Shown here piece after piece: positions 12,179 to 22,480 of a DNA stretch of 40,106 nucleotides (within the stretch, counting starts at the first letter, position 1; each line of letters begins with the position of its first letter). The notes under the pieces were generated by a model. The model was not told where the DNA came from and did not search any database. It saw nothing but the letters and a program-made list of their open reading frames with translations. The position numbers and the translations under genes were made by a program. Source of the DNA: Bacteroidetes bacterium 24-39-8 (lineage in GTDB: Bacteria; Bacteroidota; Bacteroidia; Chitinophagales; Chitinophagaceae); the NCBI GenBank assembly GCA_002256765.1, contig NCHJ01000019.1, positions 1 through 40,106 on the forward strand, given 5' to 3'.

Positions 12179-13495
12179 ATGGCAAACGACCATCTTTCCA
12201 AAAAATTGACACCAACTTTATTATGGGGTTTGGGGGTAGGCTATGTCATTTCTGGAATGTATTTTGGCTGGAATCTGGGCTTAGAAAAAGGAGGCAGTTG
12301 GGGTATGGCGGCAGCCACTTTTTTGGTAATTATCCTTTATAGCTGTTTTAGCTTTTCATATGCAGAACTAGCTTGTGCTATACCAAAAGCGGGGGGCGCT
12401 TATGACTATGCCGAGAAAGCTTTTCACAAAGACATTGGGTTTATTACTGGGCTAGCGCAGATGATTGAATTTGTATTTGCACCACCAGCCATTGCTATTG
12501 CTATTGGCGCTTACTTGCATTTGGCATTTCCACAAGTTCCTGTGTTAGGAGCAGCTATTGCAGTGTATTTAATTTTTACCGCGCTCAATATCTATGGCGT
12601 TAAGGCAGCAGCCAATGTAGAATTGGTGGTGACCATTTTAGCGGTTGGAGAACTATTGTTGTTTTCAAGCTTAACCCTACCACATTTTTCAGTAGCTAAG
12701 TTTTCAGAAAATCCTTTTCCCAATGGATGGTCCGGTGTCTTTGCAGCACTACCCTTTGCTATCTGGTTCTTTTTAGGCATTGAAGGATTGGCCAATGTTG
12801 CGGAAGAAACCCTACACCCACAAAAAGATATACTCCGCGGTTTTGGATGGGCCTTATTAACCTTGGTGATTCTTTGTGTTTTGGTATTTTTTGGAAGTAT
12901 TGGCGTAGGCGGATGGAAGGCCATTGTATACGCCGCTGATGGCAGTAGTTCTGATTCTCCTCTGCCATTGGCACTAGGTCAATTATTTGAGACCAATCAC
13001 CTATTCTATCAACTATTAGTGGGCATTGGATTATTTGGACTGATTGCTTCTTTTCATGGTTTGTTATTGGCCAGTGGAAGAGCCAGTTTTGAATTTGGTA
13101 AGATTGGGAACGCTCCCAAATTCTTAGGAAGGGTGCATCCCAAATTTCATACGCCAGCCAACGCACTACTTGTCAATGCCTTCTTAGGTGTATTGATTTT
13201 ATGTACAGGAAAAACGGCTGAAATCATTATCCTATCTGTATTTGGAGCATTGACATTGTATATCTTTTCCATGTTATCCCTGATCAAACTCAGACAAACA
13301 GCTCCCCAATTAAAGCGCCCATTTAAAGTGCCTTTTTATCCTGCTACACCCATGATTGCCCTTCTACTTTCTGTAATTTGTTTTATAGCACTATGCTATT
13401 ATAATCTGACATTGTGCTTAACTTATTTGGGAATTATAGGGTTCTTTTTTCTTGTTTTTAAATTGTTGAAATATGAGCAACCAAGCAGTATTTGA
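12179..13495 (+). CDS. eat: Ethanolamine permease (APC superfamily)
   Basis: A 438-residue integral membrane protein with about twelve hydrophobic segments. Its N-terminal half has the features of ethanolamine permeases of the APC superfamily: GYVISGMYFGWNLGLEKGG, FSYAELACAIPKAGGAYDYAEKA, and the stretch EFVFAPPAIAIAIGAY. It imports ethanolamine or a related amino alcohol across the inner membrane. The family is normally linked to eutBC; here it heads a gamma-glutamylation gene set instead. Its last 23 bp overlap the next gene's start, which implies translational coupling with the ligase. A different amine substrate cannot be excluded. Confidence 0.85.
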   Translation: MANDHLSKKLTPTLLWGLGVGYVISGMYFGWNLGLEKGGSWGMAAATFLVIILYSCFSFSYAELACAIPKAGGAYDYAEKAFHKDIGFITGLAQMIEFVFAPPAIAIAIGAYLHLAFPQVPVLGAAIAVYLIFTALNIYGVKAAANVELVVTILAVGELLLFSSLTLPHFSVAKFSENPFPNGWSGVFAALPFAIWFFLGIEGLANVAEETLHPQKDILRGFGWALLTLVILCVLVFFGSIGVGGWKAIVYAADGSSSDSPLPLALGQLFETNHLFYQLLVGIGLFGLIASFHGLLLASGRASFEFGKIGNAPKFLGRVHPKFHTPANALLVNAFLGVLILCTGKTAEIIILSVFGALTLYIFSMLSLIKLRQTAPQLKRPFKVPFYPATPMIALLLSVICFIALCYYNLTLCLTYLGIIGFFFLVFKLLKYEQPSSI

Positions 13496-14822
13496 TTATG
13501 TACAAAACCATCCATCTGGAAGGGTTAAAATAGCGGTGGCCGATGTTGACGGTGTATTACGCGGCAAATATATTTCTAGTGAAAAATTCTTGTCTGTAGC
13601 CAAATCTCACTTGGGATTTTGCGATGTGATTTTTGGATGGGATATGGCCGATGTGGCTTATGACAATGGAACTTATACGGGCTGGCATAGCGGCTACCCC
13701 GATGCCAAAGTGCAAATAGACCTAAATAGTTTTAGAAAAATACCATGGGAAAATGGAACCCCTTTTTTCTTGGGCGAATTTATTGATGCAGATGGCAAAC
13801 CATTATCCATTTGTCCCAGACAGTTGTTGCGAAAACTGATTGCGCGCGCAGCCAACATGGGATATACCGCTCAGTTTTCGCAAGAATTTGAATGGTTTAA
13901 TTTTCAAGAAACACCAGCAAGTTTTGCGGCCAAAGAAGGAAGAAACCTAACTCCCTTAACACCAGGCATGTTTGGTTATTCCATTTTAAGAAGCAGTGAA
14001 AGAAATGATTTTTTCTCAGCACTTTTTGACCAACTCAAGGCATTTGATATTCCTTTAGAAGGATTGCATACTGAAACTGGTCCCGGGGTTTATGAAGCAG
14101 CCATAACTTATGGAGAAGTATTGGGCGCCGCAGACAGGGCCATTTTGTTTAAAACAGCGGTTAAAGAAATTGGCTACCAACACAGCATCTTACCTACGTT
14201 TATGGCCAAGCCAAATGAAAACCTACCAGGCTGTAGTGGGCATGTACACCAATCACTTTGGAAAGATGGCGTAAATATATTTCATAGTAATGGGGCCGCA
14301 GACCAAATGAGCGAGACCATGCAATATTATCTAGCTGGACAATTGCATTGCTTACCAGAGATTCTTCCACTAGTAGCTCCAACTATCAATTCTTATAAGC
14401 GATTGGTAGAAGGAGCATGGGCACCCACCACTTTAACCTGGGGATTAGACAATAGAACCGTTGCCCTTAGAGCTTTAACAGGTGGTGCAAAATCTTGCCG
14501 CTTAGAAACAAGGGTAGTTGGCAGTGACACCAATCCTTACTTGGCCATGGCAGCTTGTTTGGCTGCGGGATTATATGGCATAGAAAATAAATTACCATTA
14601 CAAGCAGCAACCAAGGGTAATGGCTACCGCGATGAAAGCCACGGTAGACTTCCTAAGAATTTGGATCAAGCCAACCAAGCTATGAAATCATCCAGCGTTG
14701 CCAAATCATTATTTGGAGAGACATTTGTGCAACATTTTACGGAGACACGTGACTGGGAATTACGCCAGTTTGCCAAAGTAGTCACCGACTGGGAAACCAA
14801 ACGCTATTTTGAAATCATTTAA
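13473..14822 (+). CDS. Glutamine-synthetase-like gamma-glutamyl-amine ligase
   Basis: A 449-residue type I glutamine synthetase fold with all catalytic signatures: Glu138/Glu140 (QEFEWF), Glu201 and Glu208 (TETGPGVYE), His257/His259 (GCSGHVHQ), Arg310, the DNRTVALR segment and the R-x-E-x-R motif at 343-347. The Tyr adenylylation loop of GlnA is absent; the region instead reads GNGYRD...RLPKNLDQA, as in PuuA/GlnT-type ligases. It should use ATP to join the gamma-carboxyl of glutamate to an amine. The permease upstream and alcohol dehydrogenase downstream point to ethanolamine or another amino alcohol, analogous to Streptomyces GlnA4. True glutamine synthetase activity is a less likely alternative. 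Confidence 0.85.
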   Translation: MSNQAVFDYVQNHPSGRVKIAVADVDGVLRGKYISSEKFLSVAKSHLGFCDVIFGWDMADVAYDNGTYTGWHSGYPDAKVQIDLNSFRKIPWENGTPFFLGEFIDADGKPLSICPRQLLRKLIARAANMGYTAQFSQEFEWFNFQETPASFAAKEGRNLTPLTPGMFGYSILRSSERNDFFSALFDQLKAFDIPLEGLHTETGPGVYEAAITYGEVLGAADRAILFKTAVKEIGYQHSILPTFMAKPNENLPGCSGHVHQSLWKDGVNIFHSNGAADQMSETMQYYLAGQLHCLPEILPLVAPTINSYKRLVEGAWAPTTLTWGLDNRTVALRALTGGAKSCRLETRVVGSDTNPYLAMAACLAAGLYGIENKLPLQAATKGNGYRDESHGRLPKNLDQANQAMKSSSVAKSLFGETFVQHFTETRDWELRQFAKVVTDWETKRYFEII

Positions 14823-14839
14823 TTAGAAACATAACTTTG
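14808..14839 (+). promoter_or_regulatory. Internal promoter match before the iron alcohol dehydrogenase
   Basis: TTTG (14808-14811), exactly 20 nt, then TAACTTTG (14832-14839): a perfect fit to the Bacteroidota consensus. It begins inside the last codons of the ligase gene and ends 3 nt before the ATG at 14843. It could drive the last three genes of the cluster separately. Confidence 0.5.
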
Positions 14840-14842
14840 ATC

Positions 14843-15982
14843 ATGTCTATTTCTCAATTTAATTTTCCCACCACCATCCGTTTTGGAGCAGGTGTGGTGG
14901 CAGAGCTTCCCGCTTATTTGCAAAAACAAGGATTAAGCAAACCACTGATTGCTACAGACCCCACCATTGCTACACTAGGGTTTTTTAAAGAATTGGTAGC
15001 TGGCTTAGAACATGCGGGTTTTGCGCCAACCGTATTTCACAATATTCATAAGAACCCAGTAAAGTCTGATGTTTACAAAGGAACAGATGCTTATGATGCC
15101 GCGGGTTGCGATTGCATTATTGGTATTGGAGGCGGTGCCGCCATTGATGTTGCACGTGCCATTCTCTTACGCATTAATCACAGAGAAGACCTGTTTAAAT
15201 ATGATGACCTCATTGGTGGTGACGTTTATGTAACCAATGAAGTACCGCATTTTATTACAATTCCTACTACTGCTGGAACAGGAAGTGAAGTAGGTAGGTC
15301 GGCCATTATTGCTGACGATGAAACACATCAGAAGAAAATCCTTTTCTCTCCTAAGTTATTGGCAAAAATTGTATTTGCTGATCCAATGCTCACCATGGAA
15401 TTGCCCGCATTTATTACAGCAGCAACCGGAATGGATGCACTTACTCATAATATGGAAGCTTTCTTAGCAAAAAATTATCATCCGCTCTGCGATGGCATTG
15501 CATTAGAAGGTATTCGTTTAATAGCTGGTTCTATTGAGAAAGCAGTAAAAGCTCCTGACCTAGCATCTCGTTCTAATATGTTATTGGCTTCTATGATGGG
15601 TGCCATTGCATTTCAAAAAGGATTGGGTGTGGTGCATTCTTTGGCCCATCCATTGTCTAGTTTATTAGATACCCACCATGGACTTGCCAACGCGGTGAAT
15701 CTTCCTTATGGAATGGCCTTTAATATAGCAGGTTTTGAAGACCGTTTTGTGCGCATGGCCCAAGCCATTGGTTTGGAAACTCAAACAGGAGATGCTGTAG
15801 TAGCTTGGCTAAAAGATTTGAATCAGAAATTAGGCATCCCAGAAAATTTGAGTGCCATTGGCGTAAAAGAGGAGCATTTAGATACGCTTGCCCAATTGGC
15901 ATTGGAAGATTTTGCGCATCCCAATAATCCTAAGCCAGTAAGTCTGGCAGATTTTAAAACACTTTATCAAACTGCCCTTTAA
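14843..15982 (+). CDS. Iron-containing alcohol dehydrogenase
   Basis: A 379-residue group III alcohol dehydrogenase. The N-terminal NAD(P)-binding half has GIGGGAAIDVAR (usually GGGS) and TTAGTGSEVG. The metal ligands match FucO-type enzymes: Asp198 and His202 (GMDALTHNMEAF), His265 (GVVHSLAHPL) and His279 (THHGLANAV). In this context it would oxidise the hydroxyl of a gamma-glutamyl amino alcohol to the aldehyde, with the aldehyde dehydrogenase at 16742 completing the oxidation. The frame opens two codons earlier at a TTG, but ATG at 14843 is favoured. It is 20 bp after the ligase gene and has its own promoter match. Confidence 0.9.
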   Translation: MSISQFNFPTTIRFGAGVVAELPAYLQKQGLSKPLIATDPTIATLGFFKELVAGLEHAGFAPTVFHNIHKNPVKSDVYKGTDAYDAAGCDCIIGIGGGAAIDVARAILLRINHREDLFKYDDLIGGDVYVTNEVPHFITIPTTAGTGSEVGRSAIIADDETHQKKILFSPKLLAKIVFADPMLTMELPAFITAATGMDALTHNMEAFLAKNYHPLCDGIALEGIRLIAGSIEKAVKAPDLASRSNMLLASMMGAIAFQKGLGVVHSLAHPLSSLLDTHHGLANAVNLPYGMAFNIAGFEDRFVRMAQAIGLETQTGDAVVAWLKDLNQKLGIPENLSAIGVKEEHLDTLAQLALEDFAHPNNPKPVSLADFKTLYQTAL

Positions 15983-16041
15983 AAGTGCAGCATTAATTAT
16001 GCAATTGTTCCAAGTTGATTCAATTTCAAGTATTCAATTAG

Positions 16042-16755
16042 ATGATTAAAATAGGCATTACACATACAGAAGCCAAGTATCCCAATTATCCAGCATGGAT
16101 TGAGTCTGCAGGTGCGGCTTATGAAATTGTAGTATTAGATTGGGAGAAAAACAATGCATCAGACCTCTTGCAATGTGATGGACTGTTACTCAGTGGTGGC
16201 GTAGATATTGACACGCAGTTTCATGAGCCAGCAACAAAAGAATATCCTTTACAACCTGCCGCTTTTAAAACCCAAAGAGATGTATTTGAAATGGGTTTAT
16301 TAACTACTGCCCTAAAGGCCAAGATGCCAGTTTTAGGAATTTGTAGGGGCTTACAACTCATCAATATTAGTCTTGGAGGAAAATTGATTTTAGATATTCA
16401 AAGCAATGGACAACCCAATCACCGGGCCATGGATGGGGTAGATCATGTACACCAAGTAAACTTAGACCCCCAATCACAATTAGCAACCATTACTGGAACA
16501 AAACAAGGAACTATCAATAGCGCGCACCACCAAGCCGTATTAGAGCCGGCCCCTTCTTTAAAAGCCGTTGCATTTTCTAGTGAAGATGGCATTATTGAAT
16601 CTTTAGAATGGAAAGATCCAACTGAACACGGACCCATGGTTTGCGTGCAATGGCATCCAGAAAGAATGCAGAACAAAGAAAACGAACCGCTCTCTCAAAA
16701 TATCCTTGATTGGTTTTTAGGAGCAGCAAAAAAATACCAGCATGAACATCATTAA
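16042..16755 (+). CDS. Gamma-glutamyl hydrolase, peptidase C26 (PuuD-like)
   Basis: A 237-residue class I amidotransferase-fold hydrolase. The nucleophile Cys101 lies in LGICRGLQ, and His205/Glu207 in VQWHPE complete the triad; LLLSGGVDI forms the oxyanion region. PuuD-type members cleave gamma-glutamyl bonds, for example gamma-glutamyl-GABA to glutamate and GABA. In this cluster it should release glutamate and an amino acid (glycine if ethanolamine is the substrate). A 59-bp gap precedes it; its 3' end overlaps the aldehyde dehydrogenase gene by 14 bp, so the two are translationally coupled. Confidence 0.88.
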   Translation: MIKIGITHTEAKYPNYPAWIESAGAAYEIVVLDWEKNNASDLLQCDGLLLSGGVDIDTQFHEPATKEYPLQPAAFKTQRDVFEMGLLTTALKAKMPVLGICRGLQLINISLGGKLILDIQSNGQPNHRAMDGVDHVHQVNLDPQSQLATITGTKQGTINSAHHQAVLEPAPSLKAVAFSSEDGIIESLEWKDPTEHGPMVCVQWHPERMQNKENEPLSQNILDWFLGAAKKYQHEHH

Positions 16756-18106
16756 TCCAGCAACAGGAGACATTATTACCACTATTAGTGCTGACACCGA
16801 ATCAAGTATCAATGAGAAATTGATTCAATTAAAAAAAGGTCAGAAAGCCTGGGCGCAAGTGCCACTGTCCGATAGGATTGCAGCCCTAGAAAGTTTTGCA
16901 GCTTTTCTGCAACAACATATAGAAGCCTGTGCAGAAATTTTGAGTATGGAAGTGGGTAAACCATTACAACAAGCACGTAATGAAGTTAATGGTGCATGCG
17001 CTAGAATTGCTTGGCTAACGGCCAATGCCAGTAAATATTTATCAGAAGAATGGATGGTCACCGAAGGGGCTACCAAAGAAAAAATTGTATACGAACCACT
17101 TGGTGTGGTTTGTAATATTTCTGCCTGGAACTATCCTTATTTGGTGGGAACCAATGTGTTTGTATCCGCTTTATTGGCAGGTAACGCAGTGTTGTATAAA
17201 CCCTCAGAGTTGGCTACCTTATCTGGTATGCAAATTCAGAAATACTTATACGAAGCTGGTGTTCCTGAAGATGCTTTTCAAATTGCCGTTGGCGATAAGC
17301 ATGTGGGAGAACTCTTATTAGACGCTGACCTAGATGGTTATTTTTTTACTGGATCTTATAAAACGGGAAAATACATTTATGAGCGCGTAGCTACTAAAAT
17401 GAAACCTTGTGGTTTAGAATTGGGTGGTAAAGACCCACTGTATGTAAGTGATGATATTACAGATATTAAAGCTGTTGCAGCGGGTACCGCTGACGGTGCA
17501 TTTTACAACAATGGTCAAAGCTGTTGCTCAGTAGAAAGAATCTATGTGCATGAAGCGGTTTATGATGCTTACGTTGCAGCATTTGTAAAAGAAGTACAAT
17601 CTTATAAAATTGGAGACCCTGAAGCAGCAGACACTTATATTGGTGCATTAACCAGAAAAGATCAACCGGCATTTTTAGCAGCACAGGTAGCTGATGCAAT
17701 TGCAAAAGGTGCTACTGTTTTATGTGGTGGTAAACCAATTGAAAGAAAGGGATATTATTTTGAACCCACCGTCATCACTAATGTGACCCATGGTATGGAT
17801 CTGATGCGGGAAGAATCTTTTGGGCCCATTATTGGCATTATGAAAGTAGGTTCAGATGAAGAAGCTATTCGTCTAATGAACGATACCCAATATGGTTTAA
17901 CTGCTGCAGTGTATTGCAATGATGAAGAAAGGGCTTTACATATTCAAGCAGCATTAAACGCAGGAACCGTTTATTGGAATTGCTGTGATAGGGTAAGCGC
18001 ATCCCTACCTTGGAGTGGCAGAAAAAACAGTGGCTTTGGCAGCACATTGTCCCATGCTGGTTTGCGCGTATTTACCCAACCCAAGTCTTATCATTTGCGT
18101 GGTTAA
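16742..18106 (+). CDS. NAD(P)-dependent aldehyde dehydrogenase
   Basis: A 454-residue ALDH superfamily protein with the catalytic set in place: Asn130 (SAWNYP), Glu226 (LELGGKDP) and nucleophile Cys261 (NNGQSCC). EESFGPI and the C-terminal SGRKNSGFG segment are also typical. It would oxidise the gamma-glutamyl-amino aldehyde made by the iron alcohol dehydrogenase to the acid, giving gamma-glutamylglycine in the ethanolamine case. PuuC performs the matching step in putrescine breakdown. The length is slightly short compared with PuuC-type enzymes (about 495), closer to succinate-semialdehyde-type ALDHs. It is the last gene of the cluster. Confidence 0.9.
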   Translation: MNIINPATGDIITTISADTESSINEKLIQLKKGQKAWAQVPLSDRIAALESFAAFLQQHIEACAEILSMEVGKPLQQARNEVNGACARIAWLTANASKYLSEEWMVTEGATKEKIVYEPLGVVCNISAWNYPYLVGTNVFVSALLAGNAVLYKPSELATLSGMQIQKYLYEAGVPEDAFQIAVGDKHVGELLLDADLDGYFFTGSYKTGKYIYERVATKMKPCGLELGGKDPLYVSDDITDIKAVAAGTADGAFYNNGQSCCSVERIYVHEAVYDAYVAAFVKEVQSYKIGDPEAADTYIGALTRKDQPAFLAAQVADAIAKGATVLCGGKPIERKGYYFEPTVITNVTHGMDLMREESFGPIIGIMKVGSDEEAIRLMNDTQYGLTAAVYCNDEERALHIQAALNAGTVYWNCCDRVSASLPWSGRKNSGFGSTLSHAGLRVFTQPKSYHLRG

Positions 18107-18170: not shown

Positions 18171-19559
18171 TTACCAAACAAAACTGGCTGCAGCGCCTGC
18201 AGGTAAATTTGCAGTCAAGGTTTTTCCTTTGGCCTTGATTTGAACATCTTGTTTTGTAGCAGCTTCATTGAATACCAACAAGACTGTTTTTCCATCGGGT
18301 CTTTTAAAAGCCACATTGGGAAGATTGGCTGGCAAACTGCTTGCAATTCTTACAGAACCTGCAGGCACAAATTTGGAAGCTTGGCCAATAATATAATAAG
18401 CTACATTTCTAGAAACCTTGTTTTTCTCAATGGTCAGTGCGCCCAAACAATTGGTGCAGCCCCCAGGTGTATGGGGTTGGTACAGTGCATCAGCGGCCAA
18501 GTTCCATTCTAGTGCGTTCTTACTCCAATTGCGCATAGAACCAATGACTACGTTTTTAATATGCCATCCAAAATCGCCCGCAAAATTGCTGGGACCACCC
18601 ACCCATTGTTCGGTAAAATACAAATCCTTATCTGGGTGTGCGTCATGAACAGTAGATAGCGCTTTTATATCACCCCCGTATAAATGAAAAGCCGATCCAT
18701 TGATAAAGGATTTTGCTTTTGCATTGTTTAAAATACTGATGGGATAATCTGGTCTATCACAATTGTGGTCATAGAGCACAATCTTAGTTTTGATACTGGC
18801 TTTCTGAAATGCAGGACCCAAATGATCAGCAATAAAGTTGGCTTGTTCCTCTGCCTGCATATCCAAACTGGGATTATTCTTAGGATTTAGTGGTTCATTT
18901 TGGGGAGTAATTGCATCAATGCGAATGCCTAGCCCCTTCATGGTTTGAAGATACTTGACCAAGTATTGCGCATAGACTTCATAACAGTCGGGTTTTAGTT
19001 TTCCTCCAATAGAAGACTGATTTGTTTTCATCCAAACAGGCGCCGTCCATGGGGTTGCCAAAATTTTGATATTAGGTTGAATGGTAATAATTTCTTTTAA
19101 AACAGGAATTAGGTCTTCTAGGTTTTGCCCCAATCCAAAATGCTTGAGTGTAAAATCAGTTTCTCCTTTTGGTGGATCATCATAGGTAAACACATTGGCG
19201 TCAAGGTCTGAAGCACCCACACTAATTCTTAAGTAGCTAATGCCAATTCCATTACCCTTGCTGCTGAACAATTCTGTTAAAAGTTCTTTTCGTTGCTGTG
19301 CTGGTAATTGAAAAATCAACTTGGCAGAACCACCTGTTAGGGTATAGCCAAACCCATCAATGCTTTGATAGCGCTGTTGTTCATCAATGACAATGGTTGG
19401 TTGATGATTGGTAGTTGCACTGGATTGCCAACTTGTTTTATGTGCTTGCAATAAGGCAGTTTGATCTGCCGTAGTTAACCAATAATCAACTGATTGTCCT
19501 TGTTGCGCTATTACACCAACAGAAAGGGACAAACAAAATACTAGGGTTTTAATCTGCAT
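18171..19559 (-). CDS. Glycoside hydrolase family 30 (glucosylceramidase-like)
   Basis: A 462-residue secreted enzyme with a signal peptide (cleavage near IAQ, residue 19). The GH30 barrel begins at about residue 55; YQSIDGFGYTLT is the family's opening signature. The acid/base is Glu222 (TPQNEP) and the nucleophile Glu317 (YFTEQW). The C-terminal part (about 395-462) forms the beta-sandwich found in GH30. Members retain configuration on beta-glucosides, beta-1,6-glucans or related glycans; the exact substrate is unclear. It is convergent with the aldehyde dehydrogenase (64 bp between stops). No SusC/SusD pair lies near it. Confidence 0.88.
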   Translation of the reverse strand: MQIKTLVFCLSLSVGVIAQQGQSVDYWLTTADQTALLQAHKTSWQSSATTNHQPTIVIDEQQRYQSIDGFGYTLTGGSAKLIFQLPAQQRKELLTELFSSKGNGIGISYLRISVGASDLDANVFTYDDPPKGETDFTLKHFGLGQNLEDLIPVLKEIITIQPNIKILATPWTAPVWMKTNQSSIGGKLKPDCYEVYAQYLVKYLQTMKGLGIRIDAITPQNEPLNPKNNPSLDMQAEEQANFIADHLGPAFQKASIKTKIVLYDHNCDRPDYPISILNNAKAKSFINGSAFHLYGGDIKALSTVHDAHPDKDLYFTEQWVGGPSNFAGDFGWHIKNVVIGSMRNWSKNALEWNLAADALYQPHTPGGCTNCLGALTIEKNKVSRNVAYYIIGQASKFVPAGSVRIASSLPANLPNVAFKRPDGKTVLLVFNEAATKQDVQIKAKGKTLTANLPAGAAASFVW

Positions 19560-19798: not shown

Positions 19799-20935
19799 AT
19801 GCAAACACAACAGCTGCATTTCCTGCACAATGAATGGAAAACCAAACATTCCAGTACTGGATTTTCTGCCAATGAGGCCCAACTAGTGACCCTTTTTGGT
19901 TCTAGAGAAATGGTTGGTCAACCTCAGATCTATGCACATGTGGCGGCTCAATATCCTAATGCACAAATAGTTTCTAGTTCTACTGCCGGAGAAATTATTG
20001 ATGAAGAAGTCTTTGACGATTCAGTTATTGTTACGGCCATGCAATTTGAGAAAACCAGAGTCAAGGCCATTAAAACCTCTTTTAACGAGCAAACCAATAG
20101 TTTTGAAACGGGTAAATATCTATACAAAAGTCTTAATGAACCAGATTTAGCTGGTTTGTTTATCCTCTCAGATGGCACACAAATCAATGGTAGTGAACTA
20201 GTTAGTGGATTAAACCAGGATAATGAAAAAAAGATTCCCATTACTGGCGGATTGGCGGGAGATGCTGCAAGGTTTTCCCAAACCTTGGTGGGATTAAATG
20301 AGCCAGCTACAGAAGGAATTATTGTAGCCGTTGGTTTTTTTGGGAATGCTGTGAAAATTGGTCATAGCTCCCTAGGGGGATGGGATGAATTTGGTAAAGA
20401 ACGTGTGATTACCAAGTCTGATAAGAACGTTTTGTATGAAATTGATGGCGCTTCTGCTCTTGACTTATATAAGGAATACTTAGGCACTTATGCCGATGAG
20501 TTACCAGGTTCTGCCCTTTTATTCCCTCTTTCTTTGAGATTGAAGGGTTCAGACCAAACCTTGGTAAGAACCATCTTGAATGTAGACAATGCCAATAAGA
20601 CCATGACTTTTGCCGGCAATCTACCGGAAGGGTCAAAAGTTAGATTTATGAAGGCCAATTTTGAAAAGCTGATCAAAGCCTCTTCTTCTGCGGCAGAAAA
20701 ATCATTTCAAACCAATAAATCACCTGACCTAGCCATTTTAATTAGTTGTGTGGGTAGAAAGCTGATTTTACAGGAACGTACTGAAGACGAAGTAGTTGCG
20801 GCCAAACAGATTTTTGGAGAAGATACCTGTATCACTGGTTTTTATTCTTATGGAGAGATTTCTCCATTTAATACCAGTTTTAAATGTGAACTGCATAATC
20901 AGACCATGACCATCACTACCTTTTCTGAGCAATAA
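19799..20935 (+). CDS. FIST-domain sensory protein
   Basis: A 378-residue soluble protein covering the FIST_N domain (about 25-220) and FIST_C domain (about 225-365). Recognisable parts include VSSSTAGEI near residue 60, ITGGLAGDAARF and the C-terminal CVGRKLIL...GFYSYGEISP. FIST domains are predicted ligand-binding sensor modules that occur fused to or beside signalling proteins. Here it stands alone, 33 bp ahead of a soluble hybrid histidine kinase, suggesting that it senses the ligand and controls that kinase. The ligand is unknown. No signal peptide or membrane helix is seen, so it acts in the cytoplasm. Confidence 0.88.
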   Translation: MQTQQLHFLHNEWKTKHSSTGFSANEAQLVTLFGSREMVGQPQIYAHVAAQYPNAQIVSSSTAGEIIDEEVFDDSVIVTAMQFEKTRVKAIKTSFNEQTNSFETGKYLYKSLNEPDLAGLFILSDGTQINGSELVSGLNQDNEKKIPITGGLAGDAARFSQTLVGLNEPATEGIIVAVGFFGNAVKIGHSSLGGWDEFGKERVITKSDKNVLYEIDGASALDLYKEYLGTYADELPGSALLFPLSLRLKGSDQTLVRTILNVDNANKTMTFAGNLPEGSKVRFMKANFEKLIKASSSAAEKSFQTNKSPDLAILISCVGRKLILQERTEDEVVAAKQIFGEDTCITGFYSYGEISPFNTSFKCELHNQTMTITTFSEQ

Positions 20936-20968
20936 GAAATAATACTATCTTCGAAGCATCATCCAACT

Positions 20969-22480
20969 ATGGGATACCACAGCATTTTAGAAAAACAAAT
21001 TCGTAAACTTCTTCCTGAAAACTATCCGGTAGATGCTGTAATGCAAGTATTACTAAACACTATCAGTAGCAGTTATCAAGCTTTTGATAGAGACAAGCGA
21101 TTGGCGGACCATGCTTTTGAGATTAGTGAAAGAGAATACCAAAAAGTAAACGCAGACCTTCAAGCTCAGAACGATATTAGAAAAGCTTCTATTCTCAAAC
21201 TAAAAGAAGCCATTAAATCATTAGACCCAACTAGGTCTATTAGTTTTGATGACAAGGATGAAGATTTGATTAGCATCATCTCTTTCTTAGAAGAACAGAT
21301 TGCTAGGTCCAAACAAATGGAAGCAGACCTAATTTTGGCAAAGGAAACAGCTGAAAAAGCCTCTTTAGCCAAGAGTGAATTCCTCTCAATCATGAGTCAT
21401 GAGATTAGGACCCCGCTTAATGCCATTATTGGAACCAATAACTTACTCCATTACCAAGATCCGCTTCCATCTCAGAAAGAATTACTGAATGTGATGAAGA
21501 TTTCTTCTGAAAACCTGCTTAGTTTAATCAATGACGTTTTGGATTATGGCAAGTTGGAAGAAGGTAAAATTATCTTGGCTGAAAGAGATATTAACCTCAA
21601 ACAATTTGTCAAAAATCTTAGGGCAGCGCACCGTTTGCGCGCTGAAGAGCGTGGTAATAACCTGCGTTTGATGTTTGATGAAGATATTCCGGATTTTATT
21701 ATTGGAGACGATATTCGCTTGGGTCAGGTACTTAATAACCTCATCTCAAATGCCATTAAGTTTACCAAGAAAGGAACTATTACAATAGAAGTATTGTTGA
21801 ATAGAATTGCTGAAGAATGCGTGTATGTAGACTTTGCCATTATTGATACTGGTATTGGGATACCTCCTGAAAAACAAGAATTGATTTTTGATAGGTTTAC
21901 ACAAGCTAATAATAATATCACTAGAGAATATGGTGGATCCGGATTGGGTTTAACCATTATCAAACTCTTGTTGAAACTACAGAATAGCGATATTCACTTA
22001 GAAAGTGAAGCCAACAAGGGTTCCAAATTCTATTTCACGCTCTGCTTTAAGAAAAGCGATGCCGTTGCTCAGGAAGAAAGCAAGACCATGCACGCCGATG
22101 CCCCAGATTTGAAGGGTTTAAATATTCTATTGGTAGAAGACGTGGAATTCAACATTATGGTGGCAGAGAAAATGTTGCAAAACTGGAATGCCAAAGTAGA
22201 AATTGCAGGCAATGGACAAATTGCTGTAGAAAAAGCCAAAGCTACTAAATTTGATATTATCCTCATGGACTTACAAATGCCCGTGATGGATGGCTATACT
22301 GCTACAAAAGCCATACGCGAATTTGATAATGAAACTCCAGTCATTGCTTTAACAGCATCCATTACCATTGATATTCAGGGAAGGGCTACAGAGTTTGGTA
22401 TGAATGATTGCATTACCAAGCCATTCAACCCCAAAGACTTATTTAGCATCATTGCTAAATACACTGCCAAGGATAAATAA
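20969..22480 (+). CDS. Soluble hybrid histidine kinase with receiver domain
   Basis: A 503-residue cytoplasmic kinase. Residues 1-130 are helical and end in a coiled coil, with no membrane segment or known sensor domain. HisKA has the phospho-acceptor His144 (FLSIMSHEIRTPL), HATPase_c has NNLISNAIKFT, DTGIGIP and GGSGLGLTI, and a C-terminal receiver (about 384-503) has phospho-acceptor Asp434 (ILMDLQMPVMDG) and the Lys of ITKPF. The absence of an input domain fits partnership with the FIST protein 33 bp upstream. A phosphotransfer partner or output regulator is not in the window. The stop lies 2 bp from the convergent corA stop. Confidence 0.92.
   Translation: MGYHSILEKQIRKLLPENYPVDAVMQVLLNTISSSYQAFDRDKRLADHAFEISEREYQKVNADLQAQNDIRKASILKLKEAIKSLDPTRSISFDDKDEDLISIISFLEEQIARSKQMEADLILAKETAEKASLAKSEFLSIMSHEIRTPLNAIIGTNNLLHYQDPLPSQKELLNVMKISSENLLSLINDVLDYGKLEEGKIILAERDINLKQFVKNLRAAHRLRAEERGNNLRLMFDEDIPDFIIGDDIRLGQVLNNLISNAIKFTKKGTITIEVLLNRIAEECVYVDFAIIDTGIGIPPEKQELIFDRFTQANNNITREYGGSGLGLTIIKLLLKLQNSDIHLESEANKGSKFYFTLCFKKSDAVAQEESKTMHADAPDLKGLNILLVEDVEFNIMVAEKMLQNWNAKVEIAGNGQIAVEKAKATKFDIILMDLQMPVMDGYTATKAIREFDNETPVIALTASITIDIQGRATEFGMNDCITKPFNPKDLFSIIAKYTAKDK

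Follow-up and report, generated by a model that had tools for sequence, protein, structure and literature searches.

A conserved five-gene cassette of Bacteroidota with a proposed gamma-glutamylation route from ethanolamine to glycine

The 40,106-nucleotide contig NCHJ01000019.1 of Bacteroidetes bacterium 24-39-8 (hereafter the window) carries a cassette of five co-directional genes on its forward strand, between positions 12,179 and 18,106. This cassette is probably a catabolic operon that would convert ethanolamine to glycine through gamma-glutamylation; we infer the catalytic steps, their order and the substrate from the genes and their surroundings. We favour this reading because the gene set and its overlaps are conserved, two of the genes are fused in some genomes, the ligase has Trp at the position of Glu327 of glutamine synthetase (GS), the family of the permease and a census of its relatives agree with ethanolamine, phospholipase C genes are found as neighbours, and the same chemistry has been published for other bacteria.

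The first gene encodes an APC-family ethanolamine-type permease (12179..13495; 414 bits on TIGR00908, whose cut-off is 381.75). It is followed by a GS-like gamma-glutamyl ligase (13473..14822; PF00120, Gln-synt_C, with the GS fold in the structure model), an iron-type alcohol dehydrogenase (Fe-ADH; 14837..15982; PF00465 and PF25137), a hydrolase of the class I amidotransferase fold (Peptidase_C26, hereafter C26; 16042..16755; PF07722) and an aldehyde dehydrogenase (ALDH; 16742..18106; PF00171, Aldedh). The roles proposed for the four enzymes are gamma-glutamylethanolamide synthetase, gamma-glutamylethanolamide dehydrogenase, gamma-glutamylglycine hydrolase and gamma-glutamyl aminoaldehyde dehydrogenase, respectively. 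A preliminary description, made from the DNA letters, had placed the five genes correctly, and the family models agree with the families it named. Its overlaps of 23 bp (permease/ligase) and 14 bp (C26/ALDH) are exact; the other two junctions are gaps of 14 and 59 bp.

In the proposed pathway the permease would import ethanolamine and the ligase would use ATP to join it to the gamma-carboxyl group of glutamate, giving gamma-glutamylethanolamide. The hydroxyl group of this compound would be oxidised to the aldehyde by the Fe-ADH, the glutamylated aldehyde would be converted to gamma-glutamylglycine by the ALDH, and the C26 hydrolase would then release glycine and regenerate glutamate. Masking of the amine would prevent the formation of a free aminoaldehyde, and the route would need neither a cobalamin enzyme nor a microcompartment.

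The conservation of the gene set was examined around homologues of the ligase. In a scan of named genomes the best 80 of 572 relatives were kept; these bear mostly Bacteroidota titles (Chitinophaga, Pedobacter, Emticicia, Parapedobacter, Aquirufa, Flavihumibacter and metagenome-assembled genomes), and a few are titled otherwise, e.g. Verrucomicrobiales and Beijerinckiaceae. With 7 more loci they form a survey of 87 loci, and five loci from the permease census described below bring it to 92. Both surveys count L012 and L014, which duplicate the contigs of L071 and L077, and some loci are cut by contig ends. In 54 of the 92 loci the five components are all present, each as its own gene, with order and strand unchanged; the set is conserved in relatives, as the preliminary description had expected. 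Among these 54 loci the permease and ligase genes overlap in 41 and the C26 and ALDH genes in 28. Clustering of the neighbours in the 87 loci, where open reading frames (ORFs) shorter than 80 amino acids were omitted unless they matched a query, gives the ligase in 87, the Fe-ADH in 70, the permease in 69 and a joint ALDH/C26 cluster in 66, and the next commonest family occurs in only 10. One of the 87 loci, L017, carries a different ligase.

C26 and ALDH are fused into a single gene in five genomes (L045, L052, L079, L080 and the census genome G109, locus L185). There are also 15 genomes in which the ligase is not beside an Fe-ADH. Fourteen of them have an Fe-ADH elsewhere (64-79% identity; in G066 it consists of two contig-end pieces), and the exception, L095, belongs to another operon. 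Nine of these 14 genomes have a C26 gene in the fetched stretch that holds the detached Fe-ADH, and none was found in the other five. We note that the scan counts favour close relatives, because only the best 80 of 572 were kept; a separate sample of 296 Bacteroidota genomes is less biased. In the genus of the window the ligase has a scattered distribution (3 of the 37 genomes G000-G036, including the genome of the window, G000), and G225 has a ligase 93% identical to that of the window together with the whole cassette. No regulator recurs near the cassette: in a Pfam scan of 58 of the 75 listed co-directional neighbours, the commonest family, a histidine-kinase ATPase domain, occurs in 5 of the 58 genes. 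Taken as a whole, the cassette is well conserved and very probably functional in ethanolamine glutamylation. In two Emticicia loci (L024:9362-10696 and L046:9395-10726) the gene after the ligase encodes a GntP-family permease (checked with Pfam in L024) in place of the cassette, and the Fe-ADH is elsewhere in the genome.

The Fe-ADH frame opens with a TTG codon (MIMSISQF...), and translation more likely starts at an in-frame ATG at 14843, since the L065 homologue begins MSILQYNF. Its metal ligands D200, H204, H267 and H281 (numbered from the TTG) are kept in 22 of 22 aligned rows. In the C26 of the cassette the nucleophile motif, GICRGLQ, is at residue 99, and QWHPE is at 203. Among 66 C26 domains a first version of the nucleophile pattern matched 50 and a looser one matched 14 of the remaining 16, neither pattern being matched in L072 and L187, whose contigs have an identical length (283,268 bases). 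The ALDH of the window has GQSC at residue 258 and ELGG at 226; GQxC is present in 66 of 66 domains and ELGG in 64.

The ligase family was aligned in 83 rows, including the window and omitting rows of 400 amino acids or fewer, L017, L012 and L014. The residues corresponding to E129, E131, E212, E220, H269, H271, R321, R339, E357 and R359 of E. coli GlnA, which cover the metal, ATP and glutamate sites, are kept in all 83 rows. The ammonia-assimilating enzyme has the catalytic Glu327, whereas all 83 rows have Trp at this site (Trp316 in the window); IpuC also has Trp here, 5dm3 has Phe and PuuA has Tyr. In glutamine synthetase Glu327 serves the deprotonation of ammonia. The columns of Asp50 and Ser53 were left unused, as they align poorly and lie where the predicted structure is least sure. 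This structure (predicted local distance difference test, pLDDT, 88; predicted template modelling score, pTM, 0.92) matches glutamine synthetases, including 5dm3, which is titled Csal_0679 of C. salexigens. The preliminary description had pointed to the lack of the adenylylation Tyr loop instead. The loop does differ, but a Tyr aligned with Tyr397 of E. coli is present in 83 of 83 rows including the window, and the argument was dropped. In other words, as far as the alignment can tell, the telling change in the ligase is Glu327 to Trp and not the adenylylation Tyr.

We judge it extremely unlikely that the ligase assimilates ammonia as an ordinary glutamine synthetase and that its neighbours are incidental. 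The fold and the kept metal, ATP and glutamate residues would suit such an enzyme, but the invariant Trp, the conserved linkage and overlaps of the five genes and a second Gln-synt_C gene in the genome all oppose it. This second gene, a 727-amino-acid frame, is the one further Gln-synt_C match in G000 (3.4 Mb, 86% complete). The ligase passes no NCBIfam equivalog, reaching 225 bits on the type I glutamate-ammonia ligase model against a cut-off of 429. A polyamine pathway, in which putrescine or another diamine is glutamylated, seems very unlikely as well. The Puu pathway of E. coli has the logic of ligase, ALDH and C26 hydrolase in common with the cassette, the C26 and ALDH steps resemble PuuD and PuuC, and the best full-length gamma-glutamylamide model for the ligase is gamma-glutamylputrescine synthetase, far under its cut-off (201 of 650 bits). 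However, the cassette has an alcohol dehydrogenase in place of the oxidase PuuB, and such an enzyme would have no role on a diamine. There is no PuuB-type gene or other amine oxidase among the five genes, no amine oxidase recurs among the neighbours in more than 10 of the 87 loci, and the ligase is just 29% identical to PuuA.

The substrate was approached through the permease. The 296 genomes were searched at a threshold of 1e-75 or better against the window permease; the census may miss permeases, because in many genomes scoring was limited to five candidates. Twelve of the 13 permeases found adjoin one of three gene sets, namely the present cassette (six: G000, G225, G109, G166, G201 and G237), eutB (four: G174, G289, G324 and G328), or a set of GS-like ligase, a gene of the size of a short-chain dehydrogenase (SDR), ALDH and class I amidotransferase (two: G233 and G139, the SDR being Pfam-checked in G233). 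The permeases beside eutB are 42-45% identical to that of the window, and EutC beside eutB was confirmed in one of the four loci (L125). These four also pass the TIGR00908 cut-off, as does the L017 permease. G000 has eight matches to this model, and the cassette permease alone clears the cut-off. PuuP and the permease near ipuC in Paenarthrobacter aurescens TC1 gave no NCBIfam match at 1e-40.

EutB (PF06751) was found in 8 of the 296 genomes and in none of the six with the cassette, G000 being 86% complete; the earlier expectation of a cassette without eutBC thus holds for EutB, EutC not having been searched. Four of the eight EutB genomes also have the ligase. In all four the ligase belongs to the kinase-HAD operon described below (L166, L174, L178 and L179) and not to the cassette, for which reason the co-occurrence of ligase and EutB was rejected as a clue to the substrate. 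EutBC utilisation probably concerns the same substrate as the cassette, and related permeases are encoded beside both gene sets; the cassette differs in having no ammonia-lyase genes.

A possible link to phospholipid head groups is seen in the neighbourhood of the cassette. A phospholipase C gene over the TIGR03396 cut-off adjoins it in L033, L041 and L086. The 51 genomes examined have 47 such genes in 33 genomes, and about 0.02 adjacent pairs would be expected by chance, assuming 4500 genes per genome and with the family picked after looking. Such a neighbour points to ethanolamine because the quaternary nitrogen of choline cannot be glutamylated. Ethanolamine thus appears to be the likeliest substrate of the cassette. 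The pathway logic and the substrate put forward in the preliminary description are borne out by the conservation, the fusions, the permease census, the phospholipase C neighbours and the active-site residues of the ligase.

Two other kinds of neighbour were noted. In L052 a 1077-amino-acid protein is encoded 248 bp upstream of the ligase (L052:2125-5358); its Phosphoesterase domain and a weak GDPD match, which stays under the cut-off, again hint at phospholipid head groups. In three Pedobacter genomes (L031:282-6645, L048:281-6627 and L049:203-6626) FecR-, SusC- and SusD-like genes stand immediately 5' of the permease, with 42-61 bp from the end of SusD to the permease, an arrangement that suggests outer-membrane uptake of a larger substrate.

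Several observations weigh against ethanolamine catabolism. The permease exceeds the TIGR00908 cut-off by only 32 bits, the eutB-linked permeases scoring 462-514 bits, and one of the 13 census permeases (G265) is unlinked. The phospholipase C link concerns 3 of 51 genomes, was spotted post hoc, and the genome of the window has no such gene. No C26 was seen beside the cassette in L060, L065 and L085. When the ligase was sought in the 296-genome sample (1e-140 or better; 34 genomes, all 34 neighbourhoods read), 28 of the carriers had a different operon and six had the cassette. Moreover, the ligase is nearer to IpuC (40% identical; annotated substrate isopropylamine), which also has the Trp, than to Csal_0679 (35%).

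The proximity to IpuC would also fit the same chemistry on another primary amino alcohol, e.g. alaninol, 3-aminopropanol or 4-aminobutanol, with alanine, beta-alanine or gamma-aminobutyrate (GABA) as the product. IpuC, from the Ipu pathway on plasmids of P. aurescens TC1, is the nearest named ligase, and its neighbourhood likewise has an alcohol dehydrogenase-type SDR, a C26-type amidotransferase and an ALDH. In addition, the nearest NCBIfam model of the Fe-ADH is 4-hydroxybutyrate dehydrogenase, under the cut-off (349 of 500 bits). We consider another amino alcohol rather unlikely all the same. The permease family, the permease census and the phospholipase C neighbours oppose it, and the 4-hydroxybutyrate match is not specific, since the same model gives 358 and 352 bits for the corresponding enzymes of the Ruegeria and Legionella lytica clusters. 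The TC1 neighbourhood also has a cytochrome P450 with ferredoxin genes and the SDR, whereas the cassette has neither. No P450, which would provide the monooxygenase step that introduces the hydroxyl in the Ipu pathway, was found in the five genes or the scanned adjacent genes of the window (the rest of the genome was not searched), and none is among the 25 commonest of the 68 Pfam families in the 58 adjacent genes.

The route from ethanolamine to glycine is itself already known. PMC10132767 describes it in full for Phaeobacter (ETAGA, GETADH, GAADDH, GGAH and the TRAP transporter EtoVWX), reports that the proteins are raised on phosphatidylethanolamine, and states that the genes are close relatives of those for which the route was demonstrated, citing Vetting 2015 for C. 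salexigens and A. tumefaciens. For Streptomyces, GlnA4 has been shown and the rest of the route proposed (PMC6529630); PMC9397018 reviews both the Phaeobacter/C. salexigens-type and the Streptomyces routes. The preliminary description, which took only the ligase step as known, therefore overstated the novelty, given the published accounts from Chromohalobacter, Agrobacterium and Phaeobacter and the proposal for Streptomyces. In searches of the open-licence literature, both general and aimed at Bacteroidota, no account from this phylum was recognised among the papers listed.

The C. salexigens, A. tumefaciens and Phaeobacter route has the same four proposed reactions as the cassette. The Phaeobacter type was compared through a proxy, cluster L104 of Ruegeria conchae, whose ligase groups with Csal_0679/5dm3, and not through the MED193 proteins themselves. 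L104 likewise has a ligase, an ALDH and an iron-type alcohol dehydrogenase, the Fe-ADH of the cassette being 36% identical; the Fe-ADH tree joins long branches, and the comparison was used only for identity and ligands. The hydrolase is a C26 in the cassette and is annotated as N-formylglutamate amidohydrolase in L104 (with no supporting NCBIfam match), and the transporter is an APC permease where the Phaeobacter type has a TRAP system. In the ligase tree, which does not include SCO1613, a branch (99/96) sets the family rows apart, with a proteobacterial set (100/99) as their sister, while 5dm3 and the Ruegeria ligase form a separate supported set (100/100); the branch uniting IpuC and PuuA with the window side is weak (91/69). 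Given this placement the cassette ligase belongs to another clade and is not an orthologue of Csal_0679, although the two may share a reaction.

The Streptomyces GlnA4 cluster (SCO1610-1615) resembles the cassette in its GS-like ligase, ALDH and glutamine amidotransferase, and some Streptomyces species also have a putative ethanolamine permease; the alcohol step is assigned there to an SDR and not to an iron-type enzyme (PMC6529630). The novelty lies in the parts and their distribution: the ligase falls outside the Chromohalobacter clade, the hydrolase is a C26, the permease is of the APC family, and the spread in Bacteroidota is wide. We lean, with limited assurance, towards the broader view that Bacteroidota have built the route from non-orthologous parts for phosphatidylethanolamine head groups, and that related permeases serve three interchangeable modules, i.e. 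the cassette, a Streptomyces-like SDR cassette and eutBC.

The use of ethanolamine is usually predicted from eutBC. The cassette (6) and EutB (8) occur at similar frequency in the 296 genomes, so surveys based on eutBC would miss many likely ethanolamine users. Through the cassette, membrane lipid could be turned into glycine without cobalamin, and the claim that ethanolamine is the substrate becomes directly testable through the permease census. The ligase alone is no marker of the cassette, since 28 of its 34 carriers in the sample have it in a different operon, and surveys that start from the ligase need care for the same reason.

This second operon (L164:6673-9943 and 27 other sample genomes) comprises a sister ligase, 52-62% identical to that of the window, a 347-amino-acid kinase-like protein and a HAD hydrolase. 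The 347-amino-acid protein has no Pfam match and no PDB sequence match; its VDWNIGNF and RWDYDWF motifs may point to the APH/choline-kinase fold. In one neighbourhood comparison the second context was seen in 23 loci, and no locus had both contexts. On the ligase tree the two contexts need 2 changes each, compared with about 20 and 18 in shuffles. The second operon is perhaps another gamma-glutamylation route.

Related arrangements were also observed. A Streptomyces-like set occurs in Bacteroidota (L159:2973-8491, L160:3300-8901 and L017:1338-7979), with a different GS-like ligase (~36% identical), an SDR, an ALDH and a permease of the same clade (~60%); L159 and L160 also have a class I amidotransferase, which was not found in L017. 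On a plasmid of Legionella lytica (L103:7953-12600) a ligase (~46% identical), an ALDH, an Fe-ADH (42%) and a class I amidotransferase are encoded one after another, i.e. the same four enzyme types as the cassette in another gene order.

Promoter- and terminator-like matches are not more frequent than in shuffles. In the window, downstream of the cassette, a gene on the reverse strand (18171-19559) matches an endo-1,6-beta-glucanase model under its cut-off (403 of 700 bits). It is followed at 19799-22480 by a FIST-domain protein with a weak NosP match and then a hybrid histidine kinase, possibly a nitric-oxide sensing pair.

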